This document shows, piece after piece, positions 20,291 through 59,072 of a DNA stretch of 64,000 nucleotides; within the stretch, counting starts at the first letter, position 1; each line of letters opens with the position of its first letter. Source of the DNA: a virus; the IMG/VR virus record IMGVR_UViG_3300008110_000046, positions 1 to 64,000 of that record; one strand, given 5' to 3'. A program made the position numbers and the translations under genes. The notes under the pieces are model-generated. The model searched no databases, was not told the origin of the DNA, and worked only from the letters and a program-made list of their open reading frames with translations.

Positions 20291-20350
20291 AGTATCCCCC
20301 AAGGTATACTATATTTTATGTTATTTGTGTTACAGAGTCAAGTCTTTTGA

Positions 20351-21139
20351 TTAACCGGTTACCCAGGTATAACCGCCCCAACCTTGACCACCAACTCCTG
20401 AAGGATCACCTTTTTTCAGTTCTTCTTCAAGTTCTTTCATCCTTGTAAGACCTTCAGATTTAAGTGCGCCACCGTTTAGTTGTGTGCCACCCTGTGGACT
20501 GGCTATTTGTGCAAATTTTTCACGGGCTTCGCCTAGCATGACTTTGCATCCAGCTAGTGTATATTCTTTAATCCATATACCTGCATAAGGGTCTTCTAAA
20601 AATGCAAAGTCTGGACGGTGATTATATACCCAAAGAAGTAGTCGTTCATTGCTTTGTGGGCGTTGTTGTATTGTCAGTTTACGTGTCTGTGGGTTGTAGG
20701 TAAAGTTAATGTAGCTACCAAACATTTTACCCACTAATTTTTGATATCCTGCAAACATGTAGTAAGTTGCTAAACCGCCCATATTTGAGCTTGTAAGCAA
20801 ATATGTGTTGGTGTAGGCCAAATTGAATGGTTCAAACAACGTTCCACCATCCCCGCCCCCTGTTCTTGAACCAATGCTTCTACGGAAGATTTCACGCACC
20901 ACTGTGATTTCTCTTGGTAGAATATATTCGTTCTGATTTTGTACCATATCTAAGAAACAATAACTTTCTTCAACGGCATTACTGGCTCTTTGACGATAAA
21001 TTGCCATGGCTTTTTCTAACGCTGTTTCGTAGTGTATTGGGTCTAACTCAACATCAATCATGCCGTCGCCCAAGAAGGCTTTGACGTATGAGAATACTTT
21101 TTCTTTTTCGGTTTTTAGGGCGTCTAGTTGGTCACTCAT
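20351..21139 (-). CDS. 13: Neck protein gp13
   Basis: Protein of 262 aa (T4 gp13: 309 aa). With gp14 it closes the head vertex and joins the tail. It matches the family at DGMIDVELDPIHYETALEKA, FNLAYTNTYLL, GGLATYYMFAGYQK and IKEYTLAGCKVMLGEAREKF, and at the LNGGALKSEGL/ELEEELKKG end that parallels T4 gp13. The chosen ATG (MSDQLDALKT) has a late box GGTAAATA ending exactly 5 nt upstream; an in-frame start further upstream would run into the divergent gp14 gene and has no support. This suggests a leaderless mRNA. Confidence 0.9.
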   Translation of the reverse strand: MSDQLDALKTEKEKVFSYVKAFLGDGMIDVELDPIHYETALEKAMAIYRQRASNAVEESYCFLDMVQNQNEYILPREITVVREIFRRSIGSRTGGGDGGTLFEPFNLAYTNTYLLTSSNMGGLATYYMFAGYQKLVGKMFGSYINFTYNPQTRKLTIQQRPQSNERLLLWVYNHRPDFAFLEDPYAGIWIKEYTLAGCKVMLGEAREKFAQIASPQGGTQLNGGALKSEGLTRMKELEEELKKGDPSGVGGQGWGGYTWVTG

Positions 21140-21144
21140 GCTTA

Positions 21145-21152
21145 TATTTACC
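21145..21152 (-). promoter_or_regulatory. Late promoter box GGTAAATA, leaderless arrangement, for gp13
   Basis: Minus-strand GGTAAATA ends 5 nt before the gp13 ATG (spacer TAAGC). It is one half of a 40-bp divergent promoter pair with the gp14 box. A weaker alternative reading is that its AAGG acts as a distant Shine-Dalgarno. Confidence 0.6.
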
Positions 21153-21164
21153 TTATCATATTCC

Positions 21165-21172
21165 AATAAATA
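21165..21172 (+). promoter_or_regulatory. Late promoter box AATAAATA for gp14
   Basis: Plus-strand AATAAATA ends 7 nt before the gp14 ATG (spacer CACTACT), predicting a leader of 0-2 nt. No Shine-Dalgarno is visible. Confidence 0.6.
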
Positions 21173-21179
21173 CACTACT

Positions 21180-22514
21180 ATGCCAAGACTCAGTTTATAC
21201 CGCCCAGAAAAAGCCAACGATTACACCTTTATTGATAGACTTGTTTTAGAACAGTTTATGGTAGGGGGAACGGATGTCTACATCCACAAATATTTAGGCC
21301 CAAAAGACCCATTAGAGGGACAATCTACCCCAGATCAGCCCACAAATACCCACGGTGTTTCTGAATTGGGTATACAAGATTTACTATTATTAGAAACTAG
21401 AGACAGGAGATACAGTGATGACATCTATGTCATGCGTTGTATCTACAATATGCAACAATTGGATTGGAGTCTAACGCAGTTTGGACTATTTTTAGCCAAT
21501 GATACTATATTTGTTCACATACATTTAAACGATTGTGTAAAAAGAATAGGTAGAAAATTAATGGCTGGCGACGTTTTGGAGTTGCCGCACCTAAAAGATC
21601 CTCATGCGCTTAATGAAGCCACTGTTGCCCTTAGAAGATTTTATGTTGTAGAAGATGTATTAAGACCTACAGAAGGATTTAGTCAAACTTGGTACCCACA
21701 TTTGATAAAAATCAAATGTAAACCACTGGTTGATAGTCAAGAATTTAAAGATATACTTGACAAGCCTGCTGAAGATCCATTGAGTCCATATGCAAGTGAT
21801 GATTCTACTACTGCGCTACGAGATTTAATTAGCAGTTATAATAGAAATATGGATATTAATAATGCTGTTGTGGCGCAAGCAGAGCTTGATGCGCCTATGA
21901 GTGGTTACGATACTGATTCTTTATGGATGGTACCAGTTGATCCTAGTGGAAAAGTTATGCTAATAGATGCTAGCGGCGAACAAATAGATGCTAGTAAATT
22001 TTATATGACTAGTACCACTGACGAAGGAGTTATTAGATATCTAAATAAACTTTGGACTCCAGAATCTATTACTGAACCAGAATTTTTAATTAATCCTACT
22101 GAGTTAGAATTGCAAAATAAGGGTATACCAGTAATAGATACCAGCATTATTTTAAAGAGTCCTCGTCAAAATTACTATATTGGCTATTTGATTGGTGACA
22201 GTGTGCCTCCAAATGGATATCCTTTGAGTGGCATGGGCGCACAATTTCCTGATACAGCAGTTGATGGCACATTCTTTTTAAGAACTGACTTTTCACCAAC
22301 AAGATTGTTTAGGTATAATGGTTCTAGTTGGCGTGTTTTTGAAGATAATGTGCGTATGACATTAAGCAACACCAATACACGTAAGACATTAAAAACAGGA
22401 TTTATTAATAATACGAATCAAACTACCATTGGAGACAAGGTCATTGACGAAAGACAACCAATTAGTAAACCTTTGGAAGTTGGAAAGAATTTAAAACCTG
22501 AGGCAGACAATTAA
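21180..22514 (+). CDS. 14: Neck protein gp14
   Basis: Protein of 444 aa (T4 gp14: 256 aa). It works with gp13 at the head-tail joint. Family features of the cyanophage type: MPRLSLYRPEKANDYTFID, QFMVGGTDVYIHKYLGP, DRRYSDDIYVMRCIYNMQ, QFGLFLANDTIFVHIHLND, GDVLELPHLKDPHAL and RRFYVVEDVLRPTEGFSQTW. The extra C-terminal part contains a small module (DGTFFLRTDFSP then RLFRYNGSSWRVFED) resembling modules in the gp18 insert. The ATG at 21180 was chosen because family homology starts there and a late box lies just upstream. gp15 starts in the overlap TAATG. Confidence 0.93.
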   Translation: MPRLSLYRPEKANDYTFIDRLVLEQFMVGGTDVYIHKYLGPKDPLEGQSTPDQPTNTHGVSELGIQDLLLLETRDRRYSDDIYVMRCIYNMQQLDWSLTQFGLFLANDTIFVHIHLNDCVKRIGRKLMAGDVLELPHLKDPHALNEATVALRRFYVVEDVLRPTEGFSQTWYPHLIKIKCKPLVDSQEFKDILDKPAEDPLSPYASDDSTTALRDLISSYNRNMDINNAVVAQAELDAPMSGYDTDSLWMVPVDPSGKVMLIDASGEQIDASKFYMTSTTDEGVIRYLNKLWTPESITEPEFLINPTELELQNKGIPVIDTSIILKSPRQNYYIGYLIGDSVPPNGYPLSGMGAQFPDTAVDGTFFLRTDFSPTRLFRYNGSSWRVFEDNVRMTLSNTNTRKTLKTGFINNTNQTTIGDKVIDERQPISKPLEVGKNLKPEADN

Positions 22515-54588: not shown

Positions 54589-54596
54589 TATTTATT
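54589..54596 (-). promoter_or_regulatory. Late promoter box AATAAATA for tape measure gene
   Basis: Minus-strand AATAAATA about 46 nt before the tape measure ATG. It lies on the opposite strand just downstream of the perfect plus-strand box, so the two transcripts would overlap at their 5' ends. Confidence 0.55.
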
Positions 54597-54609
54597 GGAG
54601 TTACAAATC

Positions 54610-55467
54610 GTGGAAAACAGCAAAAATCCCCTAACCGCATTTATGCGTAGGCCTAAAATCTTTCTAAGATTGCCTAGCAAAGGTCGTTATTGGTCTGAAG
54701 GTAGCATTGAAATCAATGAGCAAAACGAGTACGAAGTCTATGCTATGACCGTTAAAGATGAATTGTTGTTGAAAACTCCAGATGCTCTACTAAATGGTTA
54801 TGCCACAGTATCAGTGGTTCAGAGTTGCATACCTGCTATCAAAGACGCTTGGCAAATGCCCAGTGTTGATTTAGATGCTGTGTTAATAGCCATTAGAATA
54901 GCCAGTTTTGGTGAAAAGGTCAATTTGGACATTGCTATACCTGGTACTAATGAAGCAGAACCTTACGAGATCGATCTAAGACCAATGCTGGACAATGTTA
55001 TAGATAACGTAGTATGGGAACCAGTGGTTAAGGTCAATGATGATATCACTGTGCATATTAAACCAATTAGTTATAGAAATTTAACACAGTCTAATATAGC
55101 AAGTTTTGAAGCAGAACGTATACTACGCCAACTAATCAATCCAGAAATATCAGAAGATCTAAAAGTACAGTTAATGAATCAAGCTGCCGAAAGACTAGCT
55201 GATGCCAACGTCATACAGGTTGTTAATGGTATTGAACGTATTGACACTACCAATGGCAGTACTGATGATTTTGAATATATTAGAGAATTTCTAAACAACA
55301 GTGATCCAACTGTGTTTAAAGCTATCAGCAAAAGATACAGAGAACTCAATGAAAAGAACACCTATTCAGAAATCACAGTACAGACTCCACCTAAGTATAT
55401 AGAACAAGGTGTACCACCAACCATTACTACTAAATTTGAACTAGACTACGCAAGTTTTTTCGAATGA
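54610..55467 (+). CDS. 26: gp26-like baseplate hub/tail assembly protein
   Basis: Protein of 285 aa. The N-terminus NPLTAFMRRPKIFLRLPSKG with the LPSKG motif and the repeated acidic/hydrophobic blocks (MTVKDELLLKTPDALLNGYA) are those of the T4 gp26-type family in marine T4-like phages. In T4 gp26 and gp51 help assemble the hub around gp29. The start is GTG at 54610 because GGAG at 54597-54600 is the Shine-Dalgarno; the in-frame TTG at 54595 is inside that signal. The last codons contain TTTTTTC, a classic -1 slip site, just before the stop. Confidence 0.82.
   Translation: MENSKNPLTAFMRRPKIFLRLPSKGRYWSEGSIEINEQNEYEVYAMTVKDELLLKTPDALLNGYATVSVVQSCIPAIKDAWQMPSVDLDAVLIAIRIASFGEKVNLDIAIPGTNEAEPYEIDLRPMLDNVIDNVVWEPVVKVNDDITVHIKPISYRNLTQSNIASFEAERILRQLINPEISEDLKVQLMNQAAERLADANVIQVVNGIERIDTTNGSTDDFEYIREFLNNSDPTVFKAISKRYRELNEKNTYSEITVQTPPKYIEQGVPPTITTKFELDYASFFE
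55455..55461 (+). promoter_or_regulatory. Candidate -1 frameshift heptamer TTTTTTC
   Basis: T-TTT-TTC in the gp26 reading frame (zero-frame codons AGT TTT TTC GAA TGA). A -1 slip gives TTT TTT CGA ATG AGG and enters the gp51-like frame with no stop, making a fused protein. Confidence 0.5.
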
Positions 55468-55478
55468 GGCTTTTGTCC

Positions 55479-55691
55479 ATGACAATGCCCGAAATCCTTG
55501 AGTTTACAGATAAACTTGAGGCACAGGCAAAGGCCTTAACTAAAGAAGCATTTAGGGTAAGTTGGCACATGCGAGGTGCTATCAATCTAGATCAGACCTA
55601 CGCATTGAGCTCTGAGCAACTAGATGTCCTACAAGATATAATCAAAGAGAATTTTGAATTTACAAAAGAAACTAAAATGCCTTTTATCTAA
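55479..55691 (+). CDS. 51: gp51-like tail assembly protein
   Basis: Protein of 70 aa from ATG 55479 (or 75 aa from an ATG at 55464 overlapping the gp26 stop as ATGA). Helical, with SWHMRGAINLDQTYALS and the C-terminal KENFEFTKETKMPFI, which resembles the small gene after gp26 in marine T4-like phages. GAGG at 55466-55469 lies 9 nt before ATG 55479, supporting that start. Pairing with gp26 suggests a tape-measure or hub assembly chaperone. It may also be made as a gp26 fusion by frameshifting. Confidence 0.7.
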   Translation: MTMPEILEFTDKLEAQAKALTKEAFRVSWHMRGAINLDQTYALSSEQLDVLQDIIKENFEFTKETKMPFI

Positions 55692-56194
55692 GTCATAAGT
55701 TTCCTTAAAGTACAGTGGTATTATTCAATGAGCTAAAGCTCATTTGTTCGTTACTTCGTAACTCACATTTTATTTCATTTTATTAAGAAGAATAACTGCG
55801 AAGCAGTTGTTAATACTCATCTAGATAGAGCGTCCACACTTCGCCCGTTGCCGGGCAAAGAAAGAAAGTTCTCATCTGAGTATCACAATCCACTTAGTGT
55901 TATGGCATTACAGAGGCGGTCAGCCTGTACCTCGAGCCACGTCTTATTCTGACGGCATACTATACACAATACACTAACATTCTGTATAGCACTGGGAATC
56001 ACGTTGATGTTCCCATCCTTTGGCCTATTTTTAACTCCATTCAAACAGCAAAATCGTAGGTCTTAACGATCGTCGTCCTGTTAAGGATAGTCGCTGAGTA
56101 CTTTTTGTGGCAAAAAGATTTCCGTCCCCTACCATTCCGTAGGATTCTTCGGCGCACGAACTTAGCCTGCGCGAGCTGTAACCACTGATAAGCC
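55692..56194. ncRNA. Gene-free 0.5-kb region packed with hairpins; candidate structured RNA
   Basis: No coding region is seen. At least eleven inverted repeats fill the interval: AATGAGC/GCTCATT (55727-55744), GTTAC/GTAAC (55750-55762), AACTGC/GCAGTT (55794-55808), GCCCG/CGGGC with a 4-nt loop (55843-55856; GCAA, a GNRA loop, on the minus strand), AGGC/GCCT (55914-55926), CGTC/GACG (55940-55954), CTATAC/GTATAG (55960-55989), GGGA...TCCC (55994-56014), CTTAAC/GTTAAG (56062-56085), CTTTTTG/CAAAAAG (56101-56117), CCTAC/GTAGG (56128-56143) and GCGCA/TGCGC (56152-56172). It lies between convergent genes. A longer-range pair ATACTCA/TGAGTAT encloses the GCCCG hairpin. Strand is not certain. Confidence 0.5.
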
Positions 56195-56620
56195 TTAGGA
56201 TTTTAGTATGTGAGAGCCATGGACACGGACTTGTATATGTCCGTTATAGTAATCATCTGATTCTAATACTTGCCTTAAAAATTGCTCTTTTGCTTCTAGA
56301 TATGATGTTTGTGATTTACTGTTACAATAGTGCAGTATTTCTCTTTTGAAATTTTCTTTGCCTAATTTTTCTATGTCTGCTGTGAGATTTGGACTTGAGC
56401 CATAATATTCTTGCCAATCGCTGTCTATTTTACTGCGAATCTTCTTTTTCTTTTTAGTGCCGTTTTTTAATTTTACTACTCGATATGTTGTTTTGCTAAA
56501 TTTGGCCAGCTTCTTACCAATGTATTTTCTACCTGTTAGAATGTTGGTTATGATATAAACAAACCCCACACAATCTTCAGGTAGTTCTGTAACTACATTG
56601 CCTTGATACTCCCAAGTCAT
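56195..56620 (-). CDS. GIY-YIG endonuclease
   Basis: Protein of 141 aa with the GIY-YIG core near the N-terminus: GFVYIITNILTGRKYIGKK (residues ~19-37), a basic linker (KNGTKKKKKIRSK), and SDWQEYYGSSPNL then a Glu-containing helix SYLEAKEQFLRQVL. Such single-domain nucleases are homing or repair enzymes in T4-like phages. Its ATG overlaps the stop of the 51-aa gene (ATGA), so it is in the gp46-gp47-gp55 operon rather than inside an intron. It ends right at the structured gene-free region, which may be coincidence or a relic of a mobile intron. Confidence 0.88.
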   Translation of the reverse strand: MTWEYQGNVVTELPEDCVGFVYIITNILTGRKYIGKKLAKFSKTTYRVVKLKNGTKKKKKIRSKIDSDWQEYYGSSPNLTADIEKLGKENFKREILHYCNSKSQTSYLEAKEQFLRQVLESDDYYNGHIQVRVHGSHILKS

Positions 56621-56772
56621 TTATTTTTAACATTTCCAATTTCTTGCTTGATACGTCGACGCTCACGGTCCAAAAGATCTACTCGCTTGATTAGCTGTTG
56701 CATCATTTTTTCTAATTGAGCAATTTGTTTTTGTAGTTCTTTAACTTGTGATGCGTCGACTGTGTGGGACAT
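56617..56772 (-). CDS. 51-aa coiled-coil protein
   Basis: A short gene with ATG at 56772 that overlaps the stop of the H1-like gene (TAATG) and a TGA overlapping the GIY-YIG start (ATGA). It reads MSHTVDASQVKELQKQI, continues QLEKMMQQLIKRVDLLD and ends in a basic RERRRIKQEIGNVKNK. Heptad-like leucines suggest a coiled coil. The double overlap and lack of any gap argue strongly that it is a real gene. No function is known. Confidence 0.75.
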   Translation of the reverse strand: MSHTVDASQVKELQKQIAQLEKMMQQLIKRVDLLDRERRRIKQEIGNVKNK

Positions 56773-56969
56773 TACGCTGCCTTTTTTGCTTCTACTCTGG
56801 CATTCTTTTCTGCGGTGATCTCGTTTCTGCGAGCTTTGACTGCTTTCGCTAGTTCTGCTAGAGCTTTCCGTGCTCTAGTACCAGCGGCGTTATTGCCCTT
56901 AACAAACTTTTCGTCTTCTGCTTTCCACTGTGTCAATGTGTCTTCAATTAATTTAATAGTATCACTCAT
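56772..56969 (-). CDS. Histone H1-like (Hc1-type) small basic protein
   Basis: Protein of 65 aa with FVKGNNAAGTRARKALAELA and VKARRNEITAEKNARVEAKK, the GNxxAxxRxRK and RRxEI pattern of Hc1-like proteins. Such proteins bind DNA nonspecifically; phages may use them to condense or shield DNA. AAGGAAA precedes the ATG. It shares the R-K-x-L and RR-x-EI layout with the neighbouring 90-aa protein. Confidence 0.75.
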   Translation of the reverse strand: MSDTIKLIEDTLTQWKAEDEKFVKGNNAAGTRARKALAELAKAVKARRNEITAEKNARVEAKKAA

Positions 56970-57278: not shown

Positions 57279-59072
57279 TTATGCAGGTTGCTCCACAACA
57301 TCAGCATCGTTTGAGTAACTGGTAAAACCATTCTCTTTGATTACTCTAAGGATACTGTTTACACGCCCAGCTAATTCGTCCTTGTGACTAATTAGATAGA
57401 TGTTTTTATCACGTTCTCTAGCCATTTTCTTCAGTATTCCAAGCCCTGCTTCTACGCCAGCGGCATCCATACCTGCGTCAATCAATTCGTCAATAAACAA
57501 CAAATTAATGGGTTGATATAAGCTCTCCCAAACGTCTCTAAACGCCCAAGATAGACTTAAAATTAGTCTATTTCGTTCACCTCTACTGAGATTATCGAAG
57601 TCTAAGTCCTGTCCAAGTTGTGTAATTTCGACGTTTAAATCGTTCAAAAATTTCACTTGATGCGGCAATCCGCTCTTGGCTAGGTAGTAACTTAGGCGTT
57701 TATTTAAGTATGCTAAATTTTGATCAATGATTTTCTTGCGTATAAAGCTATCTTTATTGGTCAATAGCTTGTGTAGGAAATCCATATGATCCTTGACACC
57801 AGTTAAATCGTTAACCGTGTCCCATGATATTTCTTGTATGGCTGTTTTCTTAAGTTCTTCTACTTGCTCTGTATATGGGTTTATTTCTGTTTGTCTTGCT
57901 GATAGTGCAGTTTCTAATGATTCTACATTGTTTCTATGATTATATGCTTCTTCAGCAGTGTCATAATATGTAGACGGACGACCGTTAATTTCGCCAATCT
58001 CTTTTAGCTCTGCTAGAACTGACATTAGATCAGAGTTAACTTTTTCCAAATATGTTATAGAATCAGTTAGATTCTTTTCTGCAACCTTACGCATTTCTTC
58101 GTGCTTGTGATCGTGTAATTCTTGTTCACAAGCAGGACATTTATTTTCATCTAAATGTTCAAGCTCTGCGGTATATTTGTTTACTGCTTTGTCAGCTTGG
58201 TAAACAGCGGTCTCTAAGGTCGCTTTTTGCTTGTTTAAGGATTTAATCTTAGCAGATTTTTCATCATATTCTTTTAGCTGAGTATGTTTTGTAATTTCTG
58301 CCTCGATATCAACAGAGCGCAACTCTCGAATCGCTTTTTCGAATCCTGCGATGTCTTGCTCTCTCTTTGTTTCCCAGGCTTTGCTTTTAGTAATGAGGCT
58401 ATCGATTGATTGTTGGACTTTTTCATTGCTACTCCTTATGCTTTCAATTTTAAAAGTTTCTGCTTGAATTTGATCTTTAATATCTTTAACTTGAAGTTTA
58501 AGTAATTCTGCTTTCTCACTTAATAATGTTATGCCAAGTAGTTGCTCAATGACTTCTCTTTGATCATTGGCTCTCATACTTAAAAATGGTTCAGTATAGG
58601 TGTTCAATGCAACTAGATGCTTGAACATGGTTTGACTCATGCCCAATAGTGTTTCAATAGATTTTTGTGTTTCTCTACTGTCGCCCTGTGCATCATCGTC
58701 AGCATTGTCTCCTGTTTTTTGTTCTACATGATCTATGTAAAACTTTAAAAAATTTGGTTTACGACCACGTTCTATCTTGTAACTGCGTCCATTGTTGTCA
58801 AATTCTACAGTGACAACCATGTTCTTACCATTAGTCTTGTTGATCAAATTTTCTTTTTTGATCTTGGTTAACGCTTCGCCATACAATGCGTAGCACAAGG
58901 CATTAACAATGGTAGTTTTTCCTGTGCCGTTTCGACTGCCACTGTCGTCGCCACCTAAGTCTAGGTTTTCACCCAGTACAAGAGTCAAATGATTTTTATC
59001 AAAATCCACTGCTTGAGTTTGGTTGCCCACACTCATGAAGTTTTTTACTGTTATATTTTTTATTTTAAACAT
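57279..59072 (-). CDS. 46: gp46 recombination nuclease ATPase (Rad50/SbcC-like)
   Basis: Protein of 597 aa (T4 gp46: 560 aa). With gp47 it resects DNA ends for recombination-dependent replication. Walker A GSRNGTGKTT is at about residues 44-53; the centre is coiled coil with a zinc-hook CPACEQEL; the C-terminal signature NLSRGERNRLILSLSWAF and LLFIDELIDAGMD complete the ATPase. Its start overlaps the gp47 end by 8 nt, implying coupled synthesis of the complex. Confidence 0.95.
   Translation of the reverse strand: MFKIKNITVKNFMSVGNQTQAVDFDKNHLTLVLGENLDLGGDDSGSRNGTGKTTIVNALCYALYGEALTKIKKENLINKTNGKNMVVTVEFDNNGRSYKIERGRKPNFLKFYIDHVEQKTGDNADDDAQGDSRETQKSIETLLGMSQTMFKHLVALNTYTEPFLSMRANDQREVIEQLLGITLLSEKAELLKLQVKDIKDQIQAETFKIESIRSSNEKVQQSIDSLITKSKAWETKREQDIAGFEKAIRELRSVDIEAEITKHTQLKEYDEKSAKIKSLNKQKATLETAVYQADKAVNKYTAELEHLDENKCPACEQELHDHKHEEMRKVAEKNLTDSITYLEKVNSDLMSVLAELKEIGEINGRPSTYYDTAEEAYNHRNNVESLETALSARQTEINPYTEQVEELKKTAIQEISWDTVNDLTGVKDHMDFLHKLLTNKDSFIRKKIIDQNLAYLNKRLSYYLAKSGLPHQVKFLNDLNVEITQLGQDLDFDNLSRGERNRLILSLSWAFRDVWESLYQPINLLFIDELIDAGMDAAGVEAGLGILKKMARERDKNIYLISHKDELAGRVNSILRVIKENGFTSYSNDADVVEQPA

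Follow-up and report, generated by a model that had tools for sequence, protein, structure and literature searches.

A gene-free stretch between convergent genes

The window analysed here (the whole stretch of 64,000 nucleotides, positions 1 to 64,000 of IMG/VR virus record IMGVR_UViG_3300008110_000046) contains a gene-free stretch of 503 bases (55692-56194), flanked by convergent genes on both sides (55464-55691 on the plus strand and 56195-56620 on the minus strand). As stated in a first-pass annotation made from the sequence alone, no gene lies within it, the ORF listing giving chance ORFs of 34-53 aa only. The absence of a second long gene-free stretch in the window, claimed in the same annotation, was also borne out: an apparent 757-base gap left by ORF tiling (20303-21059) is coding, being occupied by an ORF on the minus strand (20351-21217). 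The surrounding genes are:

54595-55467: T4-type baseplate hub, beyond the 75-aa gene
55464-55691, plus strand: convergent 75-aa gene bounding the RNA (ORF listing)
56195-56620, minus strand: SegE-type GIY-YIG gene, directly upstream of the RNA (PF19835, E = 1.2e-33)
57279-59072, minus strand: gp46-like (SbcC-like) recombination endonuclease subunit, conserved upstream neighbour (phrog_77, E = 9e-109)

A 65-aa histone H1-like Hc1 protein (PF07432, E = 1e-13) is also encoded upstream of the SegE-type gene and the RNA (56772-56969, minus strand).

The stretch had been described as packed with stable hairpins, and its folding indeed beats that of dinucleotide shuffles on both strands (minus strand: -146.2 kcal/mol, z = -3.2; plus strand: z = -2.9), with 0/100 shuffles folding as well. 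We regard a structured RNA as settled because of the comparative evidence presented below, rather than because of the number of hairpins.

A catalogued motif within a larger predicted RNA

A covariance-model search against Rfam, as proposed in the first-pass annotation, identified the Polynucleobacter-1 RNA (RF01718) on the minus strand at 56177-56043 (86.8 bits for a gathering score of 37, E = 4.6e-17, model positions 1-141). This was the sole Rfam family reaching threshold in the whole 64 kb. Weak matches to nqrA-II, RAGATH-25, PhrS and NPPA-AS1 lay far below threshold, and a tRNA search of the window found none, leading us to reject a tRNA/tmRNA reading. The Polynucleobacter-1 motif was described as a probable RNA of 141 nt from Burkholderiales and fresh water (Weinberg et al. 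2010, PMC2864571), and tentatively scored 'y' for cis-regulatory in the 2010 table (PMC2864571).

A pattern built from the Rfam (5') part matched 110 IMG/VR stretches. When the relatives were aligned on GGGAYGGAAA, conservation extended from about -60 to +415 and fell off at the next gene. An independent pattern, derived from the uncatalogued 3' part only, matched at least 120 stretches, including 107 not hit by the first pattern, and RF01718 was present upstream at near-constant spacing in 20/20 of the new loci tested; both domains therefore belong to one RNA. While the 5' pattern preselects some alignment columns, the 3'-pattern set is free of such bias. The 141-nt boundary of RF01718 is too short, with covarying structure extending past it by about 315 nt on the 3' side and about 8 nt on the 5' side. 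On comparative sequence grounds, RF01718 is only the 5' third of an RNA of about 460 nt, and the gene-free stretch almost certainly encodes a real large structured RNA. This RNA is kept by hundreds of uncultured large phages. Distant blastn searches of named phages with three different RNAs gave no match, and the GTDB pattern matches (L113-L115) were false, coming from genomes without RF01718.

Covariation along the whole RNA

The tree-aware covariation analysis took in 140 non-redundant sequences with pairwise identities of 43-97% (median 66%). Eighteen column pairs reached E ≤ 0.05, beyond all 20 simulated null alignments (with 20 replicates, E is not resolvable below 0.05), and 16 of these are standard pairs, distributed along the RNA from its first helix to its last. 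A helix search recovered P2, P3, P4, P5, P5a, P5b, P6, P7, P9, P10, P12 and P15 together with the pseudoknots PK1, PK2 and PK3. In an independent alignment of 60 diverse members (MAFFT alignment A1), double changes occurred in 67/85 pairs. Double-changed cells numbered 750, compared with 229 after shuffling, 86.7% of cells were paired versus 72.0% when shuffled, and the covariation score was 0.430 (shuffled, 0.170; slid partners, at most 0.087). P3, P4 and P6 were weaker in this alignment (32-72% paired) and depend on the helix search. The strand is assigned as minus because G-U pairs are frequent. On this sequence evidence, the minus-strand RNA has 12 or more helices and three pseudoknots supported by covariation; its main elements, all on the minus strand, are:

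55727-56185: full conserved RNA, about 459 nt, from PK1 to P15 (conservation profile, tree-aware covariation and helix mapping; predicted ends)
56043-56177: RF01718 Polynucleobacter-1 part (covariance model, full length 1-141)
56181-56185 with the P4 hairpin loop 56107-56111: pseudoknot PK1 (90.4% paired, double changes in 5/5 pairs)
56152-56172: helix P2 (99.3% paired, double changes in 5/5 pairs; two pairs at E ≤ 0.05)
56046-56096: helix P5 with P5a and P5b (94-96% paired; three P5 pairs at E ≤ 0.05)
55979-55991/55958-55970: helix P7 (pairs at E ≤ 0.05)
P7 loop 55971-55977 with 55894-55900: pseudoknot PK2 (97.6% paired, double changes in 7/7 pairs)
55903-55953: P9/P10 (helices 98-99% paired, including PK3; column pairs 255-285, 267-303 and 268-302 at E ≤ 0.05)
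55949-55953/55919-55923: pseudoknot PK3, within the P9/P10 region
55839-55860: hairpin P12, between the twin boxes, CTTTGCCCG-GCAA-CGGGCGAAG (80.9% paired, 60 RNAs)
55727-55745: terminal hairpin P15, terminator-like, at the 3' end (95-97% paired, double changes in every pair)

The 5' strand of PK1 falls outside the Rfam model. The most conserved core lies in the P9/P10/PK3 region (GCUCGAGGUA...ACCGCCUCUGUAAUG). A terminator scan calls the P15 hairpin on the plus strand. At 56076-56088 (columns 129/141, flanking P5a), significant non-canonical covariation (U..C versus C..U) occurs beside a CCU/AGG hairpin, and one of two possible pairs flanking P5a is apparently always retained.

These compensatory changes in homologues, found in both the 140 non-redundant and the 60 diverse sequences, bear directly on what the first-pass annotation had put forward. 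Its suggestion of a large ornate noncoding RNA is backed by the Rfam match, the covariation across 140 sequences and the three pseudoknots, and the GCCCG-GCAA-CGGGC hairpin that it had pointed out is real and conserved, being P12. The longer-range ATACTCA/TGAGTAT pair said to enclose this hairpin fared less well: it exists in the sequence of the window but is not conserved, the second segment being GAUAAUA in most relatives, which is unpairable. Both segments fall within the twin boxes described below.

Genomic neighbourhood

The SegE-type gene is the same-strand upstream neighbour of the RNA in 188/196 loci of the main family, and its stop codon falls within the first helix strand or beyond it in 123/196. 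The RNA is present in 62 of the 78 gp46 relatives; nearly all the others end before the RNA position, and one (L300) carries there an RNA of the sister subfamily. The RNA, found in records of up to 356 kb, is a core locus of large T4-like phages, in the order gp46 - SegE-type GIY-YIG - RNA. By gp46, the closest named relatives are jumbo phages, PA5oct and Paride among them (50% identity), and no copy of the RNA was detectable in these two or in the SegE carriers Melnitz, ACP17 and V45v66. At least 500 named phages have a relative of the SegE-type gene; the RNA is absent from all three of them that were searched whole.

On the other side of the RNA, the next gene lies on the same strand in 108/171 loci and on the opposite strand in 60/171, including the window. 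Late-promoter-like sites (NATAAATA) were found immediately beyond the RNA 3' end in 96/102 cases. The late genes that follow the RNA in loci such as L015 and L050 vary fast and begin about 420-440 nt past GGGAYGGAAA. The N-termini of their products (e.g. MKIYEVIAE) resemble T4 capsid-targeting sequences, so these are likely packaged internal head proteins.

Gene-free stretches were also observed near gp46 in named phages. In PA5oct (76517-77180; L307:8868-9531), as in Paride and nine other records, 664 nt without genes separate gp46 from the baseplate hub. This stretch of jumbo Pseudomonas phages is very hairpin-rich (z = -7.5) and comparable in position to the RNA, with no sequence match to it; it is possibly an unrelated or strongly diverged large RNA. 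In the Sinorhizobium phage Phosso (229759-230748; L309:8411-9400), about 990 nt near gp46 are gene-free and fold strongly on both strands (z = -4.5 and -6.0), with no Rfam match and no relative among named phages.

Paralogues and a sister subfamily

Two large phage records carry more than one copy of the RNA (four in G007 and two in G004). The additional copies have other surroundings, with no SegE beside them, and five paralogues in all are located away from it. In the 327-kb record G007, four loci (L369-L372) have the 3' module replaced by a sequence with a terminator-like ACCCGAGTTTTTCGGGTT, and the twin boxes are absent; the boxes are therefore not required in every member. Another paralogue (L373) shows TTGACA-17-TATAAT after the terminal hairpin.

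The odd RNA of L300 led to a sister subfamily of 58 viral loci (L311-L368), 56 of them with SegE upstream. None of the 58 matches RF01718 or any other Rfam family. The 5' part differs from that of the main family, whose profile aligns to the 3' third in 44/58 loci (best E = 3.6e-15), and the twin boxes are retained. This subfamily is a candidate for a new Rfam entry.

Twin boxes that change in concert

The 3' part of the RNA carries two short boxes on either side of P12, both on the minus strand:

55871-55881: Box 1, ACTC followed by the 7-mer AGATGAG, identical to that of Box 2
55816-55826: Box 2, ATCT followed by the 7-mer AGATGAG, identical to that of Box 1

Across the family, the boxes have the contexts NA-CUC-N7-G and NA-UCU-N7-A and lie about 50 nt apart (47-61 nt). 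N7 is identical between the two boxes in 132/134 RNAs, versus 29 expected by shuffling, and comes in 13 types, while the preceding triplet almost always differs (CUC versus UCU). Partial identity around the boxes reaches -6 and +9. At the first position of N7, changes in both boxes coincide on 20/20 branches and go in the same direction. A search for ACTC-N7 followed by ATCT and the same N7 gave 298 matches in 298/374 loci, with 0-1 for control anchors. In G004, the two paralogues have AGGTAAT and AGATAAT, each doubled within its own RNA. Since they differ and yet are each internally identical, equality is imposed inside each single RNA, and this speaks against one partner common to the whole genome; both points come from this one case.

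A search for cis sites across the alignment revealed no column covarying with the boxes. Complements of the boxes are not enriched nearby, and complementary targets in the 64 kb are at chance level. SegE was considered as the box partner and rejected, none of its residues tracking the boxes above background. Cross-pairing between the boxes (AGAU/AUCU, a helix proposed by RNAalifold) was also discarded, as the GCAU class breaks the pairing without compensation. The twin boxes and their concerted change are new and, in our view, the most interesting feature of this locus.

Interpretation

Our preferred reading, to which we give a probability of about 0.62, is that large T4-like phages make from this gene-free stretch a big structured RNA (~460 nt) that stands alone and acts in trans; that the RNA is free-standing rather than a leader or a UTR we consider quite probable. 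Transcription would either run through from gp46-SegE or start at a promoter within SegE. The RNA would end at the P15 hairpin, just ahead of the late promoter that serves the following gene, and would act as RNA in trans, not as a leader.

The nearly constant presence of a same-strand SegE-type gene directly upstream (188/196 main and 56/58 sister loci), with a stop codon in or past the first helix strand in 123/196 loci, would also fit a cis-acting 3' UTR of the SegE-type GIY-YIG mRNA that controls its stability or expression, with no independent RNA. We regard this as unlikely in view of the five paralogues lying away from SegE in two large records, of the SegE relatives in searched named phages that have no such RNA, and of a size (460 nt with three pseudoknots) that is large for such an element. 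A leader or riboswitch of the downstream gene would be consistent with the same-strand neighbour found in 108/171 loci, many with a T4 capsid-targeting-like N-terminus. However, a cis-regulatory leader should be followed by a same-strand gene on a shared transcript, whereas by sequence the next gene is on the opposite strand in 60/171 loci, window included, and late-promoter-like NATAAATA sites lie past the RNA 3' end, between RNA and gene; the RNA is therefore not the leader of that gene. The paralogue with TTGACA-17-TATAAT past its terminal hairpin points the same way, and the leader reading is very improbable. Similarly improbable is a DNA-level cis element (a packaging, replication or recombination site) with the boxes read as direct repeats, even if strand exchange between sites would require identical short sites at one locus: the compensatory changes with many G-U pairs are a mark of RNA, box spacing is variable (47-61), and inverted arms flanking the boxes are absent. 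The packaging or replication element evoked in the first-pass annotation may survive as a possible additional role, while covariation, strand-fixing G-U pairs and free-standing paralogues indicate action at the RNA level. The degenerated self-splicing intron that it also listed, prompted by the adjoining GIY-YIG gene, is refuted on sequence grounds and has practically no probability left: no group I, group II or other Rfam intron family matches at E ≤ 5, the flanking genes are complete with none split, the SegE-type gene is intact, and the structure is kept as a unit outside coding sequence.

The boxes raise a further alternative, in which the RNA is a template: a polymerase would copy the inter-box segment, and the strand so made would jump from box to box (A-B-A', as in DRT10 or telomerase). 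Matched A/A' segments differing from one RNA to the next are the documented hallmark of templates of this kind (PMC12632851), and the match is here within each RNA, the AGGTAAT and AGATAAT paralogues of one genome each being internally identical. Nevertheless, no reverse transcriptase (PF00078) was found in 18 large phage records or in the record of the window, some of which may be incomplete, while control genomes were positive. In addition, the boxes are separated by 47-61 nt with a stable hairpin, when DRT10 repeat addition is undetectable with a 20-nt spacer (PMC12632851), and the CUC/UCU mismatch beside them is invariant. The template reading is consequently very unlikely. So is the related idea that the 3' module is a copying device, where a strand made on the RNA would re-anneal from box to box to give a repeat product in infection, the polymerase being something other than a recognisable phage reverse transcriptase.

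Under the favoured reading of a free-standing RNA acting in trans, the 3' module would expose the twin boxes, which flank P12, as a pair of equivalent single-stranded sites for docking. As the boxes must match within each molecule, we infer one partner strand, or a two-fold partner, that would engage both boxes of a single RNA, successively or simultaneously. A scaffold or decoy during infection would be the most likely role, and we put forward the specific picture of a two-site docking scaffold or decoy tentatively, at somewhat less than even odds. The twin boxes offer a handle on function, with two short sites, an equality rule and many natural variants, and the partner could be sought by altering one box or both.

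Comparison with known systems

The likeness to Polynucleobacter-1 (RF01718) is a full-length match far above the gathering score. In contrast to the lone 141-nt motif of the catalogue, the motif is here one domain of a phage-borne, non-leader RNA that adds a pseudoknot strand on its 5' side and over 300 nt on its 3' side. A small catalogued motif, once thought probably cis-regulatory, is the first third of a large folded phage RNA. The gene adjoining it belongs to the SegE-type (GIY-YIG) free-standing homing endonucleases (PF19835), but three whole-searched SegE phages lack the RNA and some RNA paralogues lack SegE. In DRT10 and telomerase templates, each RNA has two matching segments that vary in concert between RNAs (PMC12632851). 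The family described here shares this feature, A = A' holding within each RNA and varying between RNAs (132/134), but differs in having no reverse transcriptase found, a long structured spacer and an invariant mismatch by the repeats.

Finally, GOLLD and ROOL are large, pseudoknotted, phage-borne RNAs of unknown function (PMC12286853). The Rfam models of GOLLD, ROOL and OLE have no match in the window, where RF01718 alone reaches threshold, and the RNA of the window is shorter, lies beside gp46-SegE and has no tRNA island around it, the window being free of tRNAs. It is nevertheless likewise large, pseudoknotted and phage-borne, and would join these phage-borne giants with hundreds of sequences to study.
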